A stretch of DNA of 51,016 nucleotides, from NCBI GenBank assembly GCA_947468085.1, contig CANIKY010000007.1, positions 1 to 51,016 on the forward strand. Reading direction: 5' to 3'. Positions 21,893-30,428 of the stretch are shown here, piece by piece. Position 1 is the stretch's first letter, and each line of letters opens with the position of its first letter. A model generated the notes under the pieces. That model was given only the letters and a program-made list of their open reading frames with translations. It made no database searches and was not told the origin of the DNA. A program made the translations under genes and the position numbers. Source of the stretch: Paracoccaceae bacterium. GTDB lineage: Bacteria > Pseudomonadota > Alphaproteobacteria > Rhodobacterales > Rhodobacteraceae.

Positions 21893-22804
21893 TTAACCCG
21901 CGAAGGGCTGGCCCAAAGAGGCGACCGTGTTCAACCGCATCCTGCGCCGGTTCGAAGAGATCACCGCCAGCATCACAATCGTCACCGCATAGGGCAAAGA
22001 GGCCAAAAGCTGCGATGGCAGCGCCACGCCTGCCGCTTGGGCGATCAACCCGCCCAAAGACAAAGCCCCAAAAAGCACCGCGCCAAAGACGATTCGCCCT
22101 GCAGCCCAAGTGCCAAAGACCACCAGCGCCACCGCAATCCAACCCCGCCCCGCAATCATTCCATCGGCCCAAAGGGGGGTGTAGATAGTGGATGCATAGG
22201 CCCCCGCCATCCCCGCCATGGCCCCGCCAAAGGCCACAGCCGCCAGCCGGATGCGCAGCACGCGAAAGCCAATGGCGCGTGCTGCATGCGGGTTTTCGCC
22301 CACAGCGCGGATGATCAGGCCCAGTTTGGAATGGTTCAGAACCGCCCAGATCACCACCGCCAAGCCAAAGGTCAGATAAACCACCACATCCTGCTCAAAA
22401 AGTGGCCCGATCACCGGCAGATCGGCCAAGACGGGAATAGCCAACTTGCCCGGTGCATCCAGCGTTTGGCTTTCCAACGGCTTGCCAATCAGCGACGACA
22501 AACCCAGCCCCAGCACCCCGATGGCCAGCCCCGCCGCAACCTGATTTGCCATAAATCCCAAAGCCAGCGTGGCAAAAACCATCGACAGGGCGATACCCGC
22601 CAAAGCTGCCCCTGCAAAGCCCAAGACGGGGCTGTGGGTGTTATAGGTGACTACAAAGCCCACAGCCGCGCCCAAGGCCATCATCCCCTCAAGGCCAAGG
22701 TTCAAGACACCCGCACGTTCGACGATCAGCTCGCCAAGGGCTGCCAGCAACAAGGGTGTGGCAGCAGCCAAAGTGCCCGCAAGAATAAAGGCCAAAATCG
22801 TCAT
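21893..22804 (-). CDS. BMP-type ABC transporter permease (second)
   Basis: 303 residues, about eight to ten membrane segments. The sequence LLLAALGELIVERAGVLNLG and LEGMMALGAAVGF is the family signature of permeases in nucleoside/purine (YufQ/NupQ-like) and branched-chain-type transporters. The coupling region is GLIIRAVGENPHAARAIGF. It overlaps the upstream permease gene by 4 nt, so the two permeases are translationally coupled and should form a heterodimer in the inner membrane. It is the last gene of the transport unit. Confidence 0.88.
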   Translation of the reverse strand: MTILAFILAGTLAAATPLLLAALGELIVERAGVLNLGLEGMMALGAAVGFVVTYNTHSPVLGFAGAALAGIALSMVFATLALGFMANQVAAGLAIGVLGLGLSSLIGKPLESQTLDAPGKLAIPVLADLPVIGPLFEQDVVVYLTFGLAVVIWAVLNHSKLGLIIRAVGENPHAARAIGFRVLRIRLAAVAFGGAMAGMAGAYASTIYTPLWADGMIAGRGWIAVALVVFGTWAAGRIVFGAVLFGALSLGGLIAQAAGVALPSQLLASLPYAVTIVMLAVISSNRRRMRLNTVASLGQPFAG

Positions 22805-23871
22805 GCGCGCCCTGCCCAGTTCAAGATCACCCGATGGCGGATAAAGGTCAGGCTGCCCAGATAAAACACCAAGAGCAGCCCTTGAAAGACAAACACCGCC
22901 GCCACCGGCAGATCGGCCGAAACCATGGCATTATCCCCGCCAATAAACAGCGCCGCCATCAAGAACGCCGAAACCACAATGCCCAAGGGGTTCAACCCGC
23001 CCAAGTAGGCCACAATGATCGCCGAATAGCCGTAGCCCGTGGAAACCGACCGCTGCAATTGGCCCAAGGGGCCCGCCACCTCGCAAGCGCCAGCCAGCCC
23101 CGCCATCAAGCCGCCCAAAAGCAGGCTGACCCAAACCGCCCGCGCCTCGGTAAAGCCTGCATAGCGTGCGGAGCGCGGCGCTAGGCCGCCCACCAGCAAC
23201 TGATAACCCGAAAAGCGGTAGCGCATCATCACATAGGCCAAAGCGCTGATCAAAAGCGCCGCCAAAACCGAGATATTGACCCGCGTGCCAGACAGCAGAA
23301 TAGGCAAAAGTGCAGCATCAGGAAAAATCACGCTTTGGGGAAAGTTAAAGCCGTTGGGGTCTTTCCATGGGCCCAACAGCAGATAGTTCAGCACTTGGGT
23401 GGCAATCAGCGTCAGCATCAAGGTGACAAGGATCTCATTGGCGTTAAAGCGCACCCGCAAGCCGGCCGCAATGGCCGCCCAAGTAGCCCCCCCCAAAGCC
23501 CCCAGCGCAATCATGGCGGGCAGCATCAGCGGCGAGGCGCCTTCGGGAAAATACACCGGCAGCGCACTGGCGAAGAGGGCACCGATGATCAACTGCCCTT
23601 CGGCCCCGATGTTGAACACATTGGCGCGAAAGCCAATCGCCAACCCTTGGGCGATCAGCATCAAAGGGCCCATCTTCAGCAAGACTTCCGAGATATTGTA
23701 CCACCCCACAAAGGGTTCCAGCAGCAGCGAATACAGCGCCTGCCCCGCGGGTTTGCCCAAGGCGGCAAACAGGATCAGACTGGTCAGCATGGCCAGCCCC
23801 AAGGCAATCAGGGGGGCTGCAAACAGCACAGGTCGCGACAGGGTTGCGCGGCGTTCAAACGTGATCTTCAT
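22801..23871 (-). CDS. BMP-type ABC transporter permease (first)
   Basis: 356 residues, polytopic. Recognisable pieces are AQGLAIGFRANVFNIGAEGQ, LIIGALFASALPVYFPEGA and the coupling helix stretch GGLAPRSARYAGFTEARAVW, typical of the NupP/YufP permease group that works with BMP-family binding proteins. The start overlaps the stop of the ATPase gene by 4 nt, and its own stop overlaps the next permease start, so the set is tightly coupled. Confidence 0.88.
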   Translation of the reverse strand: MKITFERRATLSRPVLFAAPLIALGLAMLTSLILFAALGKPAGQALYSLLLEPFVGWYNISEVLLKMGPLMLIAQGLAIGFRANVFNIGAEGQLIIGALFASALPVYFPEGASPLMLPAMIALGALGGATWAAIAAGLRVRFNANEILVTLMLTLIATQVLNYLLLGPWKDPNGFNFPQSVIFPDAALLPILLSGTRVNISVLAALLISALAYVMMRYRFSGYQLLVGGLAPRSARYAGFTEARAVWVSLLLGGLMAGLAGACEVAGPLGQLQRSVSTGYGYSAIIVAYLGGLNPLGIVVSAFLMAALFIGGDNAMVSADLPVAAVFVFQGLLLVFYLGSLTFIRHRVILNWAGRA

Positions 23872-25364
23872 GCCACAGCCCCGATCATATAGGTGCCGAT
23901 CTTGGCCACCGAGGTCGCCGCCACCTCCACCGAGGGCGACAGGCGCCCCTTATGCAGCACCTGCAAGCGGTCGCAGATTTCAAACAACTCGTCGATCTCT
24001 TCCGAGATGACCACAATCGCCGCCCCTGCATTGCGCATGGCCACCAACCGCTGGCGGATGTCAGCGGCGGCACCAATATCCACGCCCCAGGTGGGTTGGG
24101 CTACCAAAAGCACCGACGGCTCTAGCATCATCTCGCGCCCCATGATGAACTTTTGCAGATTGCCCCCCGAAAGGGACCCCGCCTCGGCCTGCGGACCGGA
24201 GGTGCGCACATCAAAGCGGGCGATGCAGTCGGCGGTAAAGGCGCGCTCAAGCTTGCGGTTGATAAAGCCGTTTTTCACCAGCCCGCGGGAATGAGCGGTG
24301 AGCAGCGCATTGTCGGCCAAAGACATATCCGGCACAGCGCCGCGCCCCAGCCTGTCTTCGGGCACAAAGGCCAGCCCGCGCTGCCTGCGCGCCGCAGCGC
24401 CTAAATCGCCCACGGGTTGGCCCATTAACATCACGGCCTTACCGCCTGATTTCAAAGCAATCTCGCCCGAGATCAGCGCTGCCAATTCTTGCTGGCCATT
24501 GCCCGAAATACCCGCAATGCCCAGAATTTCCCCGCCCCGAACAGACAGCGACACATCTGTCAGCGACACGCCAAAAGGATCATCATTGGCAAAGGTCAGG
24601 TTCGAAAGCGCCAGCCGCTCCTCTCCCAGCCCATGCGGGGTGGGATGCACCGGTGGCGGCATCGGGCGGCCGATCATCAAGGTGGCCAGGTCATGCGCCG
24701 TGCCTTGGCGCGGGTCCAGCCGTGCCGTCACACGGCCTTGGCGCAGGATCGTGGCGGTGTCGCAAAGCTCTCGGATTTCTTCCAGCTTGTGGCTGATGAA
24801 CAAAATCGCCATGCCCTTGGCCCGCAGCGCGCGCAGCGTATCAAACAGCAGCGCCACCGATTGTGGCGGTAAGACCGAGGTTGGTTCATCTAATATCAGC
24901 AACGCAGGGTTTAACAGCAGGCAGCGAATGATCTCTACCCTTTGGCGTTCCCCCACCGACAAGGCATGCACCATGGCCTGTGGGTCAACCGACAAGCCAA
25001 AAGCAGCGCCCAGATCGCGGATGCGCGCGGCCAGTTCGCCTTTCGATCCCGGCACGATCAGCGCCATGTTTTGCACGACACTAAGTGTTTCAAACAGCGA
25101 GAAGTGCTGAAACACCATCCCGATCCCCAAGCGGCGCGCATCAGACGGGCTGGACAGGGTAACCGCTTGGCCTTGCCAAAGCACCTGCCCCTCATCGGGG
25201 CGTTCCACCCCGTAGATCAGCTTCATCAGCGTGGATTTGCCAGCACCGTTTTCGCCCAAGATCGCATGAATAGATCCGGCATCGACCGAAAGATCGATGC
25301 CGGCATTGGCTTGTACCCCGCCGTAGCGTTTCGAGACGCCAGAAAGCTGCAACAGCGGGGCCAT
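23868..25364 (-). CDS. BMP-type ABC transporter ATPase with two nucleotide-binding domains
   Basis: 498 residues with two fused ABC domains. Domain 1: Walker A ILGENGAGKSTLMKLIYG, signature LSVGERQRVEIIRCL, Walker B LLILDEPTSVL. Domain 2, from about residue 255: degenerate Walker A IAGISGNGQQELAALISG, signature LSGGNLQKFIMGREM, Walker B VLLVAQPTWGVD. A degenerate second site is normal for sugar- and nucleoside-type double ATPases. It powers the two permeases downstream. Its ATG lies 9 nt after the binding-protein stop. Confidence 0.92.
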   Translation of the reverse strand: MAPLLQLSGVSKRYGGVQANAGIDLSVDAGSIHAILGENGAGKSTLMKLIYGVERPDEGQVLWQGQAVTLSSPSDARRLGIGMVFQHFSLFETLSVVQNMALIVPGSKGELAARIRDLGAAFGLSVDPQAMVHALSVGERQRVEIIRCLLLNPALLILDEPTSVLPPQSVALLFDTLRALRAKGMAILFISHKLEEIRELCDTATILRQGRVTARLDPRQGTAHDLATLMIGRPMPPPVHPTPHGLGEERLALSNLTFANDDPFGVSLTDVSLSVRGGEILGIAGISGNGQQELAALISGEIALKSGGKAVMLMGQPVGDLGAAARRQRGLAFVPEDRLGRGAVPDMSLADNALLTAHSRGLVKNGFINRKLERAFTADCIARFDVRTSGPQAEAGSLSGGNLQKFIMGREMMLEPSVLLVAQPTWGVDIGAAADIRQRLVAMRNAGAAIVVISEEIDELFEICDRLQVLHKGRLSPSVEVAATSVAKIGTYMIGAVA

Positions 25365-25373
25365 AGGAACCTC

Positions 25374-26462
25374 TTACTTCGGCAAGGGCGTGGTGACGCC
25401 CTTCACATGCCAATCCATCGACAAGATCATATCGTCGCCCAAGGTGACGCCCGCTGCAACCTGCTCTGCGCCGTCTTGGTTGGTGATCGGGCCGGTGAAG
25501 GGCGAGAAGGCGCCCGATTCAATGGCAGCTTCCGTCTCGGTGATCTTGGCCACGATGTCGGCGGGGATATCGGGGTTCCAATCGGCGACAAAGACGCATT
25601 TCTCGGCCATGCTTAGCCAAGCCGAGGCGCCTGCAAAGGTGCCCGCCAGATGCGCCTCAACCGATTGCAAGAAGTAGGGGGCCCAATCGGTGCCGACCAC
25701 GCCCAGATACTTCGTTGGCGCATAGGTCTTCATCGACGAATTGAGGTTAAAGGCGTAAACCCCCGCCTCTTCCGCCGTCTGGATCACCGAAGGCGTGTCT
25801 TGTGCGTTCGAGAAGATCACATCCACGCCTTGCGAAATCAACGCCTTAGCCGCTTGCTGTTCGGAAGCCGGATCGAACCACGAATTCACCCAAACAACCG
25901 AGACTTCAATCGCAGGGTCCACCGATTGCGCGCCCAAGGTGAACGCATTGATCGAGGTGATCAGTTCAGGAATGGCAAAAGCCCCGACGCAGCCCAGTTT
26001 CTTGGATTTGGTCAGCGCAGCCGCCGCCATGCCCATCAGATAAGTGCCCTGATAATAGCGCGCGCCAAAGGGCGAGAAGTTGTCGGCCGTCTTGTAGCCC
26101 GAAGCGTGCAAAATTGACATATCGGGCCGCGACTTGGCCAGCTTTAGCCCGCCTTCCATATAGCCAAAAGAGCCCAAGATCAGGAACGTGGTGCCGTCGG
26201 CTGCGGTCTTGTTCATGATGCGGTCGGCATCGGGGCCTTCGGCGATGTTTTCCAACAGGGTCACTTTGACCTTGTCGCCATATTTCGCCTCTAGCGCCTT
26301 GGTGCCCAGTTCCAGCGTATGCGACCAACCCACATCGGCTGCGGGCGAGGGCACGATCAGCGCCACGTTCAGCACATCGTCAGCAAAAGCTGGCACAGGC
26401 AGCGCAAGGGCTGTGCTGGCGGCGAGGGTGGATTTTAGAAAGCTGCGGCGGTTTAAGGACAT
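25374..26462 (-). CDS. BMP-family periplasmic substrate-binding protein
   Basis: 362 residues. The N-terminus MSLNRRSFLKSTLAASTALA is a twin-arginine type signal (RRSFLK) ending near VPAFA. The mature protein has LNVALIVPSPAADVGWSHTL and later IFSNAQDTPSVIQTAEEAGV, typical of the basic membrane protein family. BMP proteins bind nucleosides, purines or related heterocycles such as riboflavin. Position between the amidohydrolase gene and the ATPase gene supports a purine-like ligand, but the ligand is inferred. A ribosome site GGAG lies before the ATG. A G-rich repeat separates it from the upstream amidohydrolase gene. Confidence 0.9.
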   Translation of the reverse strand: MSLNRRSFLKSTLAASTALALPVPAFADDVLNVALIVPSPAADVGWSHTLELGTKALEAKYGDKVKVTLLENIAEGPDADRIMNKTAADGTTFLILGSFGYMEGGLKLAKSRPDMSILHASGYKTADNFSPFGARYYQGTYLMGMAAAALTKSKKLGCVGAFAIPELITSINAFTLGAQSVDPAIEVSVVWVNSWFDPASEQQAAKALISQGVDVIFSNAQDTPSVIQTAEEAGVYAFNLNSSMKTYAPTKYLGVVGTDWAPYFLQSVEAHLAGTFAGASAWLSMAEKCVFVADWNPDIPADIVAKITETEAAIESGAFSPFTGPITNQDGAEQVAAGVTLGDDMILSMDWHVKGVTTPLPK

Positions 26463-26476
26463 GGTCTTCTCCGTTC

Positions 26477-26529
26477 AGGGTTAAGGGGTGGGTTAAGGGT
26501 TGGGTCAGGGTTAAGGGTTAGGTCAGGGT
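26477..26529. repeat. Telomere-like GGGTTAAGGG repeat
   Basis: The plus strand carries seven or more G-runs spaced by TTAA, TT, TCA or TTA, for example GGGTTAAGGGGTGGGTTAAG at 26478-26497. The minus strand, which is the mRNA sense here, reads as repeated CCCTTAACC. It fills the gap between the amidohydrolase stop at 26518 and the binding-protein start at 26462, and overlaps the last few codons of the former. Confidence 0.75.
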
Positions 26530-27888
26530 GCGGTGCAGGGCCTCTTCGGCTTGGGCAAACAACTGCCCTTCATCAAGGCCGGGGAAAGCGCCGTTTTGCC
26601 AAAGGATGCGGCCATTGGCCATCGTCAGGTCAGTGGGGGCACCCACGCCCACTTTGGCGATCAGGCTGACGGGGTCATGGCGGGTGCCGACATAGTCCAG
26701 CTTGCGGGTGTCGATGGCGAACAGATCAGCCGCCTTGCCCACTGCCAAACTGCCCAGATCACGCCGCCCCAAAAGATCAGCCCCGCCTTGGGTGGCATAG
26801 TGCAGGAATTGGGCAGGCTCCGGCACGGGATGTTTGCGCCCCGAGGCCACCAAGCATTGCAACATATAAGCCGAATGAATGCAGTGCATCAGGTTGGAAT
26901 TGTCATTCGACGCAGCCCCATCCACCCCCAGCCCGATGCGCAGCCCCAAGGCCTGCATGGCGGGAATATCGGTGACTTCTGCCCCCACCAGATAAACCGG
27001 TTCAGGGCAATGCGACACGCCTGTGTTGGTCGCGGCAAGTTGCGCCAGTTCGCTATGGGTTAACTCCCACGCATGGGCATAAAACGTGTCTGGGCCGCAA
27101 AAGCCCATCTCTTGCAGATAATCGACTGTGCGCTTTCCCGTGCGGGCCTGCATCACGGGGCTTTCGCCTTCGCCCACATGGGAATGCAGGAAAACGCCCT
27201 TATCGCGCGCCAAGCGCACCGATTCGACAAAGGTGTCGCGGTAGCAATTCACCGGTTGGCAGGGCGATATCACCACCTGCCGCAGGCTAAAGTCGCCCGC
27301 ATCGTGGTACTGATCAATCAGCCTTTCGCAATCGGCCAGAAAACCATCGGTGGTTTCCAGCATCTCGTCGGGGATGGTGGAGCCTTCGCTTTTGGGCAGC
27401 GTATTGCCGCCCCGCCCCGCATGAAACCGCAGCCCAAACAGATCGGCCGCTTCAAACTGGCGGTCAACGATGCGCGATCCGGCATGGCGGGGGAAGTTGT
27501 ATTGATGGTCAAAGGCCGTGGTGCAGCCGTGTTTGATCAGTTCGGCCATAGCCACGACGGAAGAGTGGTAAAAGCATTCTTCCGTCAAGCGGGCAAAGAT
27601 CGGATAGATCCGGTCCAGCCATTGCAGCACGGAAAGCTTGGTCCAATCCAGATCGGCGCGGTTTCGCACGAAGGTTTGGAAGAAATGGTGATGGGTGTTG
27701 ATCAGGCCCGGATAAACAAACCACCCGCTGGCGTCGATCACTTGGGTGCCTGCTGGCAGCGGGCCTGCCGACAGGTTGGGGCCAATGGCGGCAATCGCAG
27801 GCCCTTGGATCAAGATATCCTGACCCCGCAGCACCGGCAGATGGGCCGAGCGCACAATCGCCGCACAAGATTTCAGCAAATATCCCAT
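26518..27888 (-). CDS. Amidohydrolase, 8-oxoguanine deaminase / AtzB-like
   Basis: 456 residues of the COG0402 aminohydrolase group. Metal ligands: H66 and H68 in LINTHHHFFQTF, a His in FLHSHVGEGESP, a His in FYAHAWELTHSE, and the Asp in LGVDGAASNDNSNLMHCIHS. The HHHFxQT pattern matches 8-oxoguanine deaminases of the PA0142 type; sister enzymes deaminate isoxanthopterin, guanine or triazines. The reaction is hydrolytic removal of an exocyclic amino group from a purine-like ring in the cytosol. The ATG overlaps the stop of the GST-like gene by one base (TGATG). Clustered with a demethylase-like system and a BMP transporter, it may act on a methylated guanine or 8-oxopurine. The substrate is not proven. 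Confidence 0.85.
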   Translation of the reverse strand: MGYLLKSCAAIVRSAHLPVLRGQDILIQGPAIAAIGPNLSAGPLPAGTQVIDASGWFVYPGLINTHHHFFQTFVRNRADLDWTKLSVLQWLDRIYPIFARLTEECFYHSSVVAMAELIKHGCTTAFDHQYNFPRHAGSRIVDRQFEAADLFGLRFHAGRGGNTLPKSEGSTIPDEMLETTDGFLADCERLIDQYHDAGDFSLRQVVISPCQPVNCYRDTFVESVRLARDKGVFLHSHVGEGESPVMQARTGKRTVDYLQEMGFCGPDTFYAHAWELTHSELAQLAATNTGVSHCPEPVYLVGAEVTDIPAMQALGLRIGLGVDGAASNDNSNLMHCIHSAYMLQCLVASGRKHPVPEPAQFLHYATQGGADLLGRRDLGSLAVGKAADLFAIDTRKLDYVGTRHDPVSLIAKVGVGAPTDLTMANGRILWQNGAFPGLDEGQLFAQAEEALHRTLT

Positions 27889-28538
27889 CAGACAACCTCA
27901 GGCGCGGGGTGCAATTCGTGCAGGCGGTGAATGCCGGGCATTTCGACAAAGCGGTCAAGTGCGCGGACGGCGCGGGTCCATAGGCGAACGGACGGATAGG
28001 CATCAAGGCTAACACCGCCGTCTTGGGACAGCGCCACATTGGGAAAGCAGGCGATGTCAGCGATGGAGGGGGCATCGCCCACCAACCAAACCCCGCCCGC
28101 AAAGCGCCGCTCGCTTAGGGCGGCTTCCAATTCGCGCAGCGCCGCATGGCCTTGGGCGCGCCATGCGTCGATATTGCCTTCGTACAGCAACATATCATGC
28201 AGCCTTGCCATGCCCAAGCTGGCGGCCAAGCGGCCCGAAAAGGCCAGCCAGTGCTGCACTTGGGCGGCGGATTTGGGGTCTGAGGGCGCCAGCCAGTCAC
28301 GCCCCAAAAGCTGCGCCAGATAGACCAGCATCGCGGTGCTTTCGGTCAGGATCAAATCGCCATCCACCAGCACCGGCAGCGTGCCCGCCGGATTAAGCCG
28401 CGCAAATTCCACCGATTTATGCGCCCGACCGGGGTGAAAATCCACCGCCTCATGCTTTAGCTTAACACCCAGCAAAGCCGCCATCAGGCGGATTTTGTAG
28501 CAACTGGCACTCAGCACATAATCATACAGCCGGATCAT
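27888..28538 (-). CDS. GST-like protein, possible NdmE-type oxygenase partner
   Basis: 216 residues with a thioredoxin-like N-terminal domain (MIRLYDYVLSASCYKIRLMA, then LNPAGTLPVLVDGDLILTES with the cis-Pro and the ES glutathione pair) and an all-helical C-terminal domain (WLVGDAPSIADIACFPNVAL). This is a complete GST fold. The start at 28538 overlaps the oxygenase stop (ATGA), and the stop overlaps the amidohydrolase start. A GST-like protein next to a Rieske-less oxygenase mirrors NdmE, which I recall as a structural partner in the 7-methylxanthine demethylase. A catalytic role, such as trapping formaldehyde or another electrophile with glutathione, is the alternative. Confidence 0.85.
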   Translation of the reverse strand: MIRLYDYVLSASCYKIRLMAALLGVKLKHEAVDFHPGRAHKSVEFARLNPAGTLPVLVDGDLILTESTAMLVYLAQLLGRDWLAPSDPKSAAQVQHWLAFSGRLAASLGMARLHDMLLYEGNIDAWRAQGHAALRELEAALSERRFAGGVWLVGDAPSIADIACFPNVALSQDGGVSLDAYPSVRLWTRAVRALDRFVEMPGIHRLHELHPAPEVV

Positions 28539-29377
28539 GCCGCCACCATCTGCGCGCCGTAGGTTAGACCGCGTTTCTTCAGCCACCGCCGATAGGCGAT
28601 AGAGGTGAGGTCGGCTTGGGTTGGAACCTCCATCCCCGGATCCAGCGGCAGCAGGCGGGGGATCTGGTTTTCAAGAATGGATCGGTCCTGCAGGAAGATC
28701 ATTTGCTGAAAGGCGATCAGTTCGGCTTGTGGGGTCGTGTCATCATAAAGCGCCATCCACGGCCAGACATCGCACAACTCTTCACTTAAGGGCTGCACGA
28801 AAATGCCGATCACATCCCAAGCATCGGGCCGCGCAGGGCAGGTTTTATACAGCACCGCCGCGGTGGGCGCGGGCACGCGGTACATATATTGCGTCACAAT
28901 CCCGCCCTCGGCCGATTTGGCGGCTTGGGGCTGGTAAAAGGTGACTTTGGTCGCCCAAACCTCGTCGCTGTCTGCGCGGATATTCACCTCGTAGCGGTTC
29001 ACTTCGGTGTGGGGTTCAGCGCCCAAAACATCGGTGTGGACAAAGGGAAAATGGGCGATATCCAAAAAGTTTTCAACCGCGCGCAAGGGCGAGCATTTGA
29101 CCCGCACCACCCCCACATCCACCAAGCGGCGGCCTGTTTCCAAGGCTTCGGGAATGGGGAAAAGCGGATGCGCTGGCGTGCCCGGGCAGGCCCAGACATG
29201 GCCGAAGGCCTCGGTCACGCGCAAAGCGCCGCCCTGCCCTGTCACGACGATGGCACAGTCTTGCACCTCAACCGTGATCGGATCGCCCAAAAGCTGCGTC
29301 AGGCGCCGCTGCCCCGCACGGATTTGGGAAGCCATGGCGACAGGATACCATTCGTTCAAAACCTGAGGCGCGATCAT
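28535..29377 (-). CDS. Non-haem iron oxygenase subunit without a Rieske domain (NdmC-like)
   Basis: 280 residues. The N-terminus MIAPQVLNEWYPVAMASQIR and QLLGDPITVEVQD resembles the start of vanillate/caffeine demethylase oxygenases, but the CxH...CxxH Rieske segment that should follow is missing. The catalytic domain is intact: bridging D106 and iron-ligand candidates H109 and H114 in ENFLDIAHFPFVHTD, and the third ligand candidate D231 in FLQDRSILENQ. A Rieske protein is encoded immediately upstream with a 4-nt ATGA overlap, so the two must act as a split Rieske oxygenase. The ATG at 29377 has GGGGAC upstream. An oxidative N- or O-demethylase is the best reading; a ring hydroxylase is possible. 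Confidence 0.8.
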   Translation of the reverse strand: MIAPQVLNEWYPVAMASQIRAGQRRLTQLLGDPITVEVQDCAIVVTGQGGALRVTEAFGHVWACPGTPAHPLFPIPEALETGRRLVDVGVVRVKCSPLRAVENFLDIAHFPFVHTDVLGAEPHTEVNRYEVNIRADSDEVWATKVTFYQPQAAKSAEGGIVTQYMYRVPAPTAAVLYKTCPARPDAWDVIGIFVQPLSEELCDVWPWMALYDDTTPQAELIAFQQMIFLQDRSILENQIPRLLPLDPGMEVPTQADLTSIAYRRWLKKRGLTYGAQMVAA

Positions 29378-30000
29378 GCTGTCCCCTTTCTTTCCGCGCG
29401 GCGGCGCAAGTCTTCCAGCCAGCGCGAGGCGGCGATGCGATCCGCCCCCACTGCGCACAAGGCGTGCAGCGTCAGGCCCGAAGCGCCGTGTTGCACCAAA
29501 AGGCAGACCTCACACGCCTGCCCTGCGATCTGCACCAACCCGCGTAATGTATCTTCACCAGACAACGCCGGTTCCACCAAAAGCACTGCGGCGACATCGC
29601 AGGTCAGGCTGATACTGCGCAAAGGCTGCAATCCGCGCAACGCCGTAGGCGCACCCAAAGTATCCGCAGGGGCGACCCAGATCACGCCGTCTTGTTCGAC
29701 ACAGGCAAAAACCGCAACGCGGATGGTGGCTGGCGGGGTCAGCGCGGGATGGGCGGGGATATGTTTGCATCCACCCTCAGCACCATAGACCCAACCGTGA
29801 TAGATGCAGGCCAAAGTCTCACCGCGCACAAATCCGTGCGACAGGCGCATGCCGCGGTGCGGGCAGCGGTCGTTCCAGGCTTGTAAGCGCCCCGTGGCAC
29901 TGCGCCAAACAGCAAGATCCTGACCCTGCCAATGGCCGGCCATAGCCACTGCCTTTGGCAGATCCTGTGACAGGCCAGTGGCTGTCCAACGCGGTGTCAT
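29374..30000 (-). CDS. Stand-alone Rieske [2Fe-2S] protein, electron donor to the oxygenase
   Basis: 208 residues. The cluster ligands are clear: C46 and H48 in NDRCPHRGMRLSHG, and C65 and H68 in LACIYHGWVYG. The surrounding sequence is that of oxygenase-type rather than ferredoxin-type Rieske domains. After about residue 110 comes an extra domain of about 100 residues that I do not recognise (SISLTCDVAAVLLVEPALSG onwards); it may replace contacts normally made within a fused oxygenase. No reductase domain is present, so an unlinked ferredoxin or reductase must feed it. GAGGGAG lies ahead of the ATG at 30000. Its stop overlaps the start of the catalytic subunit. Confidence 0.88.
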   Translation of the reverse strand: MTPRWTATGLSQDLPKAVAMAGHWQGQDLAVWRSATGRLQAWNDRCPHRGMRLSHGFVRGETLACIYHGWVYGAEGGCKHIPAHPALTPPATIRVAVFACVEQDGVIWVAPADTLGAPTALRGLQPLRSISLTCDVAAVLLVEPALSGEDTLRGLVQIAGQACEVCLLVQHGASGLTLHALCAVGADRIAASRWLEDLRRRAERKGTA

Positions 30001-30131: not shown

Positions 30132-30428
30132 TCAGGCAAGGGGTGAAGAGAATTCCGCATCAAGCGGATCGTTTGCCCTAAAGCGATCTACCTGATCCAC
30201 CCATACCTCTTGCGGACCTAGGCTACAGGCCAAGGCCATAGCGTCCAACAAATCGGGCGGGCCAGAGACGATCATCTCAAGGCGGGCAGCATTTTGCCCC
30301 AAAAGCCGCAGCCCCAAACCCAATCGCCCCGCGTGCCGCCTGATCCACACGGGAAAGACCCCAGACCCCACCTGCCCACAAAGGGCGAAGTGTTCGCTAA
30401 CATACGGCAGAGGCAGCGCGGCTTGCAT
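30132..30428 (-). CDS. Small acylphosphatase-like protein
   Basis: 98 residues: MQAALPLPYVSEHFALCGQV, then GSGVFPVWIRRHAGRLGLGL, RLLGQNAARLEMIVSGPPDL and CSLGPQEVWVDQVDRF. The strand-helix pattern and the landmarks G-V-F, A-x-x-x-G-L, N, V-x-G-P and L-G-P fit the acylphosphatase fold. The catalytic Arg expected directly after GVF-(F/Y) is displaced (GVFPVWIRR), so activity is doubtful. It is 131 bp upstream of the Rieske gene on the same strand and may be the first gene of the cluster. The function in this context is unknown. Confidence 0.6.
   Translation of the reverse strand: MQAALPLPYVSEHFALCGQVGSGVFPVWIRRHAGRLGLGLRLLGQNAARLEMIVSGPPDLLDAMALACSLGPQEVWVDQVDRFRANDPLDAEFSSPLA

Follow-up and report, generated by a model that had tools for sequence, protein, structure and literature searches.

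A conserved operon pairing a split Rieske oxygenase with an NdmH-like amidohydrolase and an ABC importer in a Paracoccaceae bacterium

Gene content and two complementary proteins

In this study, we analysed a 51,016-nt stretch of a contig of a Paracoccaceae bacterium (the whole stretch is called the window) and found on its minus strand a set of nine genes that includes a Rieske oxygenase divided over two proteins. In the order of transcription, the set comprises a small acylphosphatase-like open reading frame (ORF), a stand-alone Rieske protein (P0001), an oxygenase (P0002), a protein of the glutathione S-transferase (GST) fold (P0003), an amidohydrolase (P0004), and the BMP-type binding protein, the ATPase and two permeases of an ATP-binding cassette (ABC) importer. 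Relatives were collected by running an oxygenase alignment against the genomes of bacteria and archaea, which gave at least 543 matches; the best 80, mostly from rhizobia and Rhodobacterales and 67–94% identical, were kept for the locus counts given below. The features are:

30132..30428, minus strand: acylphosphatase-like small protein, 98 amino acids (aa); a homologue, sought at lenient thresholds, lies upstream in 78 of the 80 loci
29374..30000, minus strand: stand-alone Rieske protein P0001, 208 aa (Pfam Rieske); residues 1–111 form the Rieske domain and 112–208 a shrunken domain of catalytic type without an iron site
29377..29667, minus strand: C-terminal domain of P0001, interpreted as what is left of a degenerated oxygenase catalytic domain (modelled strands and helices; hhalign)
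28535..29377, minus strand: oxygenase P0002, 280 aa, with a VanA_C catalytic domain (Pfam) and no Rieske ligands
29036..29071, minus strand: iron-site motif NFLDIAHFPFVH of P0002, residues 103–114 (D106, H109, H114), invariant in the family alignment
27888..28538, minus strand: GST-fold partner P0003, 216 aa, NdmE-like (GST_N/GST_C)
26518..27888, minus strand: amidohydrolase P0004, 456 aa, NdmH-like (Pfam Amidohydro_1; NdmH residue set)
25374..26462, minus strand: BMP/PnrA-type substrate-binding protein (PF02608, E 1e-40)
23868..25364, minus strand: ABC importer ATPase (match in 75 of the 80 loci; NCBIfam 427.5 bits)
22801..23871, minus strand: ABC importer permease 1 (match in 75 of the 80 loci; annotated as ABC transporter permease in Rhizobium johnstonii 3841)
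21893..22804, minus strand: ABC importer permease 2 (match in 75 of the 80 loci; same annotation in R. johnstonii 3841)

A preliminary description of this DNA had recognised a stand-alone Rieske protein with C46/H48 and C65/H68, a 280-residue oxygenase with no Rieske segment and an intact iron site (D106, H109, H114 and D231), a full GST-fold protein and an amidohydrolase, and all four were borne out. P0001 matched the Pfam Rieske model (E 1e-19), P0002 VanA_C (E 5e-19), P0003 GST_N/GST_C and P0004 Amidohydro_1, and the named residues were invariant in alignments of 10 sequences for P0001 and 13 for P0002, in which N103 was invariant too. The genes overlap by 4 nt (ATGA) between Rieske protein and oxygenase, 4 nt (ATGA) between oxygenase and GST, and 1 nt (TGATG) between GST and amidohydrolase. 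These junctions are as first described, and the translational coupling of the four genes that had been read from them would be compatible with the overlaps, although overlaps do not demonstrate it. Not covered by that description were the acylphosphatase-like ORF that lies upstream, the four genes of the importer, a second domain in P0001 and the amidohydrolase type. The oxygenase was the single match of its kind in the genome, which is 96% complete (E 0.001).

In 80 of 80 pairs, one protein carried an intact Rieske motif and the other kept the iron motif and lacked the Rieske motif (iron motif in 80 and Rieske motif in 0 of the 80 P0002-type proteins). A Pfam scan of P0002 gave no Rieske match, and the C-terminal domain of P0001 had no Pfam match. 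A search of solved structures gave SxtDIOX/GxtA and SxtT as the best matches of both halves, with P0001 aligned to chain residues 12–120 and P0002 to chain residues 101–333 (SxtDIOX/GxtA, 6wnc); a further match of the P0002 N-terminus to SxtDIOX residues 8–35 was not significant in sequence. SxtT and GxtA (SxtDIOX), the best relatives of both halves in sequence and fold, differ from the operon in that each of their subunits is a single chain holding both cofactors. The AlphaFold2 model of P0001 had a mean predicted local distance difference test (pLDDT) score of 94.4 and placed behind the Rieske domain a further domain built of strands and two helices. In Foldseek, the top 24 matches of this model to GxtA/SxtT had a query-length template modelling (TM) score of 0.65–0.74, a root-mean-square deviation of 4.6–7.2 and an identity of 19–22%. 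Given that the Rieske domain makes up only about 53% of P0001, such scores mean that the second domain very probably contributes to the match. A comparison of this domain by hhalign with the split-oxygenase profile gave one match of 35 columns (P 1.6e-4, probability 50%), and comparison with the unsplit profile gave nothing meaningful (probability 1.3%). The predicted homology of the C-terminal domain of P0001 to the catalytic domain therefore has modest sequence support, the fold match being stronger.

P0001 and P0002 are almost certainly two halves of one oxygenase, and we infer that they derive from two copies of an SxtT-like alpha subunit that lost opposite cofactors. An origin of the split by chance or from a broken gene was rejected on the complementary motifs in 80 of 80 pairs, the kept overlaps and the clades formed by both halves.

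Conservation, ancestry and the GST partner

The Rieske, oxygenase and GST genes were jointly present in 80 of 80 loci, so that fixed co-occurrence, on which the preliminary description depended, was found throughout and no case of unlinked genes appeared among them. The GST gene adjoined the oxygenase gene in all 80, and the ATGA overlap of 4 nt recurred between Rieske and oxygenase genes in 67 and between oxygenase and GST genes in 75. A complete amidohydrolase gene followed within 5 nt of the GST gene in 75 loci; of the five loci lacking it, L044 and L090 end at a contig edge and L048, L083 and L107 do not. Importer matches were found for the binding protein in 77 of the 80 loci and for ATPase and permeases in 75. 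The same set is annotated in R. johnstonii 3841 as RL_RS29065–29105, without a pathway.

Among 198 genomes sampled from the family, 15, including the one studied here, gave an oxygenase match (E 1e-5). Eleven of the other 14 were taken with flanking DNA (L020–L030): nine (L020–L028) had all three genes, with the oxygenases separated from the Rieske–GST pair in L026 and L027, and L029 had an NdmC-like oxygenase with no Rieske or GST partner of this family within its locus. In L030 (G124), the split oxygenase set looks decayed, with fragmentary matches. The remaining three family matches (L013–L015) were unsplit oxygenases. In a sample of the phylum, 26 of 398 genomes gave a match (E 1e-15), split and unsplit enzymes pooled.

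The NdmCDE system of Pseudomonas putida CBB5 carries out the N7-demethylation of 7-methylxanthine, and homologous clusters of split oxygenase and GST have been reported from 18 further organisms, beyond Pseudomonas (PMC4408171, in the part used here). The combination of a split Rieske oxygenase with a GST is thus already known and not new. The preliminary description had proposed kinship with an NdmC/NdmD/NdmE-type set in which the Rieske protein is free rather than fused to a reductase, and had known of no such set in Rhodobacteraceae. The kinship was upheld by the trees described below; the general arrangement is in print (PMC4408171), and the free-Rieske form of NdmCDE was not found in open-access PubMed Central (PMC). 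As in NdmCDE, the oxygenase here lacks Rieske ligands, the Rieske domain is on another protein, a GST-like partner is present and the genes are adjacent, and each half falls in one clade with NdmC- or NdmD-like proteins. Unlike in NdmCDE, the Rieske protein is free (208 aa) rather than fused to a reductase, no reductase gene is nearby, the set includes an amidohydrolase, an importer and an acylphosphatase-like gene, and the oxygenase belongs to a separate sub-clade.

In these comparisons, NdmC, NdmD and NdmE of CBB5 were represented by loci of the same layout from Klebsiella, Pseudomonas fulva, Sinorhizobium and others; ten NdmCDE-type loci were used (L115–L119, L155, L156, L158, L159 and L161). 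Their Rieske–reductase fusions measure 588 aa in Sinorhizobium and 585 aa in Klebsiella and P. fulva, and the one scanned, from Sinorhizobium, matched Pfam Rieske, NAD_binding_1 and Fer2. In L118, a remnant of a first NdmC-like gene (L118:11730-11928) lies next to an intact second one.

In the oxygenase tree, from which five far unsplit rows had been dropped beforehand, the 44 split rows formed one clade apart from the 18 unsplit ones (support 100/100), and a quick tree of all 67 rows gave the same clade with support 99; the clustering with unrelated ring-hydroxylating enzymes that would have told against kinship did not appear. HpxD-type enzymes fell outside the split clade. Oxygenases of the free-Rieske type formed a sub-clade of 28 rows (92/92) that excluded L029 and L160; L029, labelled as of the free-standing type, was placed among NdmC-like rows, and a clade of all free-Rieske oxygenases including L160 gave p 0.42 in the approximately unbiased test. 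In the Rieske-domain tree, the 36 split rows (27 free and 9 NdmD-like) formed one clade against 23 unsplit rows (97/89), within which the NdmD rows grouped together (96/95) and the free rows more weakly so (92/65). Since the split oxygenases and the split Rieske domains each form one clade, the two halves probably parted once, and the fusion of NdmD to a reductase probably either arose later in one branch or disappeared from the other. CBB5 NdmCDE itself would be placed within the split clade by way of the loci of the same layout.

P0003 lay far closer to the GSTs encoded in NdmCDE-type loci than to two others from its own genome. In the GST tree, free-type and NdmE-type proteins were intermingled on short branches; the two other GSTs stood on very long branches, one of them in an unresolved fork, and a third GST of the genome had no usable match. 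We regard it as likely that P0003 is part of the putative complex. The alternative that the GST is catalytic, trapping formaldehyde as S-hydroxymethylglutathione instead of serving as a structural subunit, draws on an N-terminal motif, S-[PA]-S-C-Y-K, that is present in at least 72 of the 80 GSTs (counted from the 15 commonest strings) and would be uncommon in a protein that acts only as a scaffold. However, formaldehyde also reacts with glutathione without an enzyme. As NdmE has moreover been proposed to be non-catalytic and structural (Summers 2013, as cited in the part of PMC13237722 used here), we consider a catalytic GST unlikely.

The homologue of the acylphosphatase-like protein in R. 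johnstonii 3841 is annotated as an acylphosphatase, and none of three proteins of this kind exceeded the cut-off of the Pfam acylphosphatase model PF00708: that of R. johnstonii scored 20.7 against 22.5 bits (E 5e-4), and the protein at 30132–30428 had no match to the model. The catalytic arginine and asparagine of acylphosphatases were not seen at the expected places of the family consensus. The protein probably has no acylphosphatase activity. At E 1e-5, its gene had no match in the ten NdmCDE-type loci or in the free-Rieske loci L023, L028, L157 and L160.

The amidohydrolase, the importer and the proposed function

N2,N2-dimethylguanine hydrolases (NdmH) have been described from Pleomorphomonas oryzae, Haliea and a Rhodobacteraceae bacterium, and 13 active-site residues have been named for the P. 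oryzae enzyme, poNdmH; according to the discoverers, the physiological context of NdmH is still under investigation (PMC13054789, Drexler et al. 2026, in the part used here). Compared by published residue numbers and not by full sequence, P0004 has all 13 key residues at the poNdmH numbering minus 3: the catalytic Q74, E243, H275 and D326 correspond to Q71, E240, H272 and D323; the CQNN set C213, Q214, N217 and N165 to C210, Q211, N214 and N162; and the substrate-flanking W85, W93, Y98, Y133 and P300 to positions 82, 90, 95 and 130 and P297, the last being read from the list of prolines in P0004. NdmH activity is predicted for P0004. Twelve of the 13 residues (all except P297) were tallied in relatives and were kept in 76 of 76. 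A Pleomorphomonas homologue lies inside the same operon (L047) and has its glutamine at 74 from the likely start, as in poNdmH. Among more distant relatives, the amidohydrolases of L027, L120 and L156 depart from this set at four of the 12 tallied positions. Assignment of P0004 as an 8-oxoguanine deaminase was rejected, its score being far under the cut-off of the NCBIfam model NF006055.

Other purine enzymes occur near some relatives and in the genome itself. The amidohydrolase of L027 with the differing residues exceeded the 8-oxoguanine deaminase cut-off (580.6 against 532 bits), and L025, L026 and L027 have one protein each just under the guanine deaminase cut-off (359–374 against 375.4 bits), that in L025 being encoded beside importer genes. 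Xanthine-dehydrogenase-type matches lie near L026, L027, L117, L155 and L156. On other contigs of its own genome, a guanine deaminase (506.6 bits, C97) and a xanthine dehydrogenase (1173.9 bits, C53) exceed their cut-offs; with a canonical guanine deaminase elsewhere, P0004 is unlikely to be the housekeeping one. Both the residues of the amidohydrolase and some of the genes next to relatives suggest a purine of the guanine type.

The binding protein of the importer matched PF02608 at 139.6 bits (cut-off 24.1). PnrA-type proteins bind nucleosides and purines. Matches to such BMP-type binding proteins lie near six of the ten NdmCDE-type loci, and xanthine-dehydrogenase-type matches near three.

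Taken together, we favour, by a modest degree, reading the locus as an operon for the uptake, N-demethylation and deamination of an N-methylated guanine-type purine. The BMP-type importer would bring the base into the cell, and the two-part oxygenase would remove the N-methyl group as formaldehyde. P0001 would bear the [2Fe-2S] cluster and P0002 the mononuclear iron, so that the electron would pass between the two proteins; in ordinary trimeric Rieske oxygenases, it passes between neighbouring subunits. The halves would be kept together by the GST-like protein, perhaps with help from the acylphosphatase-like one. The NdmH-like amidohydrolase would take off the C2 amine (NH2 or N(CH3)2) to give xanthine for the xanthine dehydrogenase of the cell, and demethylation and C2 hydrolysis could proceed in either order. 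That the substrate is a purine we think quite probable, and that the reaction is N-demethylation rather probable; methylguanine as the substrate has slightly less than an even chance. N7 is a first guess for the methyl group removed, chosen because NdmCDE, which has the same layout, acts at N7. Bacteria of soil and water probably use the set to recycle methylated RNA bases.

Two other readings concern the substrate and the reaction. The operon might serve a methylxanthine N-demethylase, with 7-methylxanthine or another methylxanthine imported and the amidohydrolase acting on a separate guanine-type substrate. The known split enzyme is indeed a 7-methylxanthine N7-demethylase (PMC4408171), and the BMP-type and xanthine-dehydrogenase-type matches near NdmCDE-type loci (six and three of ten) fit this reading as well. 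However, in 75 of 80 loci the NdmH-like gene comes straight after that of the GST, a methylxanthine needs no such step, and the guanine-deaminase-type gene of L025 is beside importer genes; we consider this reading unlikely. Hydroxylation of a guanine-like or guanidinium compound without removal of a methyl group, by chemistry like that of SxtT/GxtA or HpxD, is about as unlikely. It becomes possible by the kinship with SxtT/GxtA, the best sequence and fold matches of both halves, and unsplit purine oxygenases annotated as HpxD exist. HpxDE, a molybdenum-independent xanthine hydroxylase, resembles the operon in being a purine-acting Rieske oxygenase by annotation, but it is unsplit, has a VanB-type reductase gene of its own and lies outside the split clade. 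Furthermore, what has been reviewed for split enzymes of this kind is demethylation, and since the first step is common to demethylation and hydroxylation, the fold does not discriminate between them.

Several observations weigh against uptake and N-demethylation of a methylated guanine. The PDB names of the closest solved relatives, SxtT and GxtA, mention saxitoxin-type ligands, and the AlphaFold2 model of P0002 was poor (mean pLDDT 72.4, best at about residues 1–90), GxtA/SxtT still coming first in its fold search. NdmH was assayed on N2,N2-dimethylguanine, which hydrolysis alone converts to xanthine (PMC13054789, in the part used here), so that no clear need for an oxygenase arises with this base, and "7-methyl" is absent from the main text of both amidohydrolase papers. 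The best NCBIfam model for P0004 was that of 8-oxoguanine deaminase (362.7 against 532 bits), and the nearest named models for the importer were those of a putative B6 importer, also under their cut-offs (binding protein 82.9 against 400 bits, ATPase 427.5 against 670). In three of the 80 loci (L048, L083 and L107), the amidohydrolase is missing even though the contig runs on, and L107 lacks the importer as well. No reductase match was found in any of the 80 loci (E 1e-6). Near the 80 loci, one large-subunit and one small-subunit match to xanthine dehydrogenase were found, so that the link to xanthine dehydrogenase comes from more distant loci. Finally, the 80 loci counted are the most similar of the 543.

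In its widest form, which we put forward tentatively and think doubtful, the proposal is that NdmH belongs physiologically to this operon, which would salvage methylated guanine bases released from RNA; a hetero-oligomeric split oxygenase, derived from one alpha subunit by duplication and complementary loss of cofactors, would take the ring N-methyl group and NdmH the C2 amine. The boldest version concerns doubly modified bases such as the N2,N2,7-trimethylguanine of RNA caps, for which both steps are needed to reach xanthine; a plainer one concerns 7-methylguanine. If this is true, NdmH gains a pathway in rhizobia and Rhodobacteraceae, which are amenable to genetics. A natural two-protein Rieske oxygenase with donor and acceptor sites on different chains would also bring inter-subunit electron transfer, and the curious requirement for a GST, within reach of direct tests. 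A term search of the main text of the NdmH paper (PMC13054789) gave no mention of Rieske, oxygenase, operon or gene cluster. In open-access PMC, we found nothing that links NdmH to a Rieske operon, describes a free-Rieske variant of NdmCDE, or presents a conserved operon that unites the free-Rieske form with NdmH, an importer and an acylphosphatase-like gene, although the cluster survey of Summers 2013 could already show some.

Candidate electron donors and related loci

The genome has three PF00175 matches, of which one, L112 (G000:C21, from about 30700), was judged the sole PDR/VanB-like one; it has Fer2 and a DmmA-like N-terminal domain. This reductase adjoins a protein that we take to be DUF3445-like, and its neighbours are presumably a dimethylamine monooxygenase set. 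NdmH acting on N2,N2-dimethylguanine would release dimethylamine. As a universal donor, L112 was rejected: among ten genomes with an intact set (that of the window and those of L020–L028), five, including the former, had a match of at least 50% identity, two had one of only 36–37% and three had none (E 1e-40).

In L162 (L162:8051-16155, G521), a free Rieske protein, an oxygenase, a GST, a separate NdmD-type reductase, an importer and an acylphosphatase-like gene lie in a row, and this was the sole free-Rieske locus found with a separate reductase gene. About 60 residues are missing from the N-terminus of its oxygenase frame, or the frame is broken there, so the locus may not be intact.

In L026 (G116) and L027 (G046), one set of Rieske protein and GST lies between two paralogous oxygenases, each of which is accompanied by an amidohydrolase of another type. 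One electron-delivery module possibly serves two catalytic subunits there, which suggests that catalytic subunits are interchangeable.

Importers of the same type also stand beside unsplit oxygenases, in Leptolyngbya, L163 and L165; on plasmid p2 of Leptolyngbya boryana (L152:1021-6672), the gene next after a complete BMP-type ABC importer encodes an unsplit SxtT-like Rieske oxygenase. On pSymA of Sinorhizobium meliloti (L117:11968-16228), two NdmC-like oxygenases, one NdmD-like fusion and one GST lie between a BMP-type ABC importer and a xanthine-dehydrogenase-type cluster.

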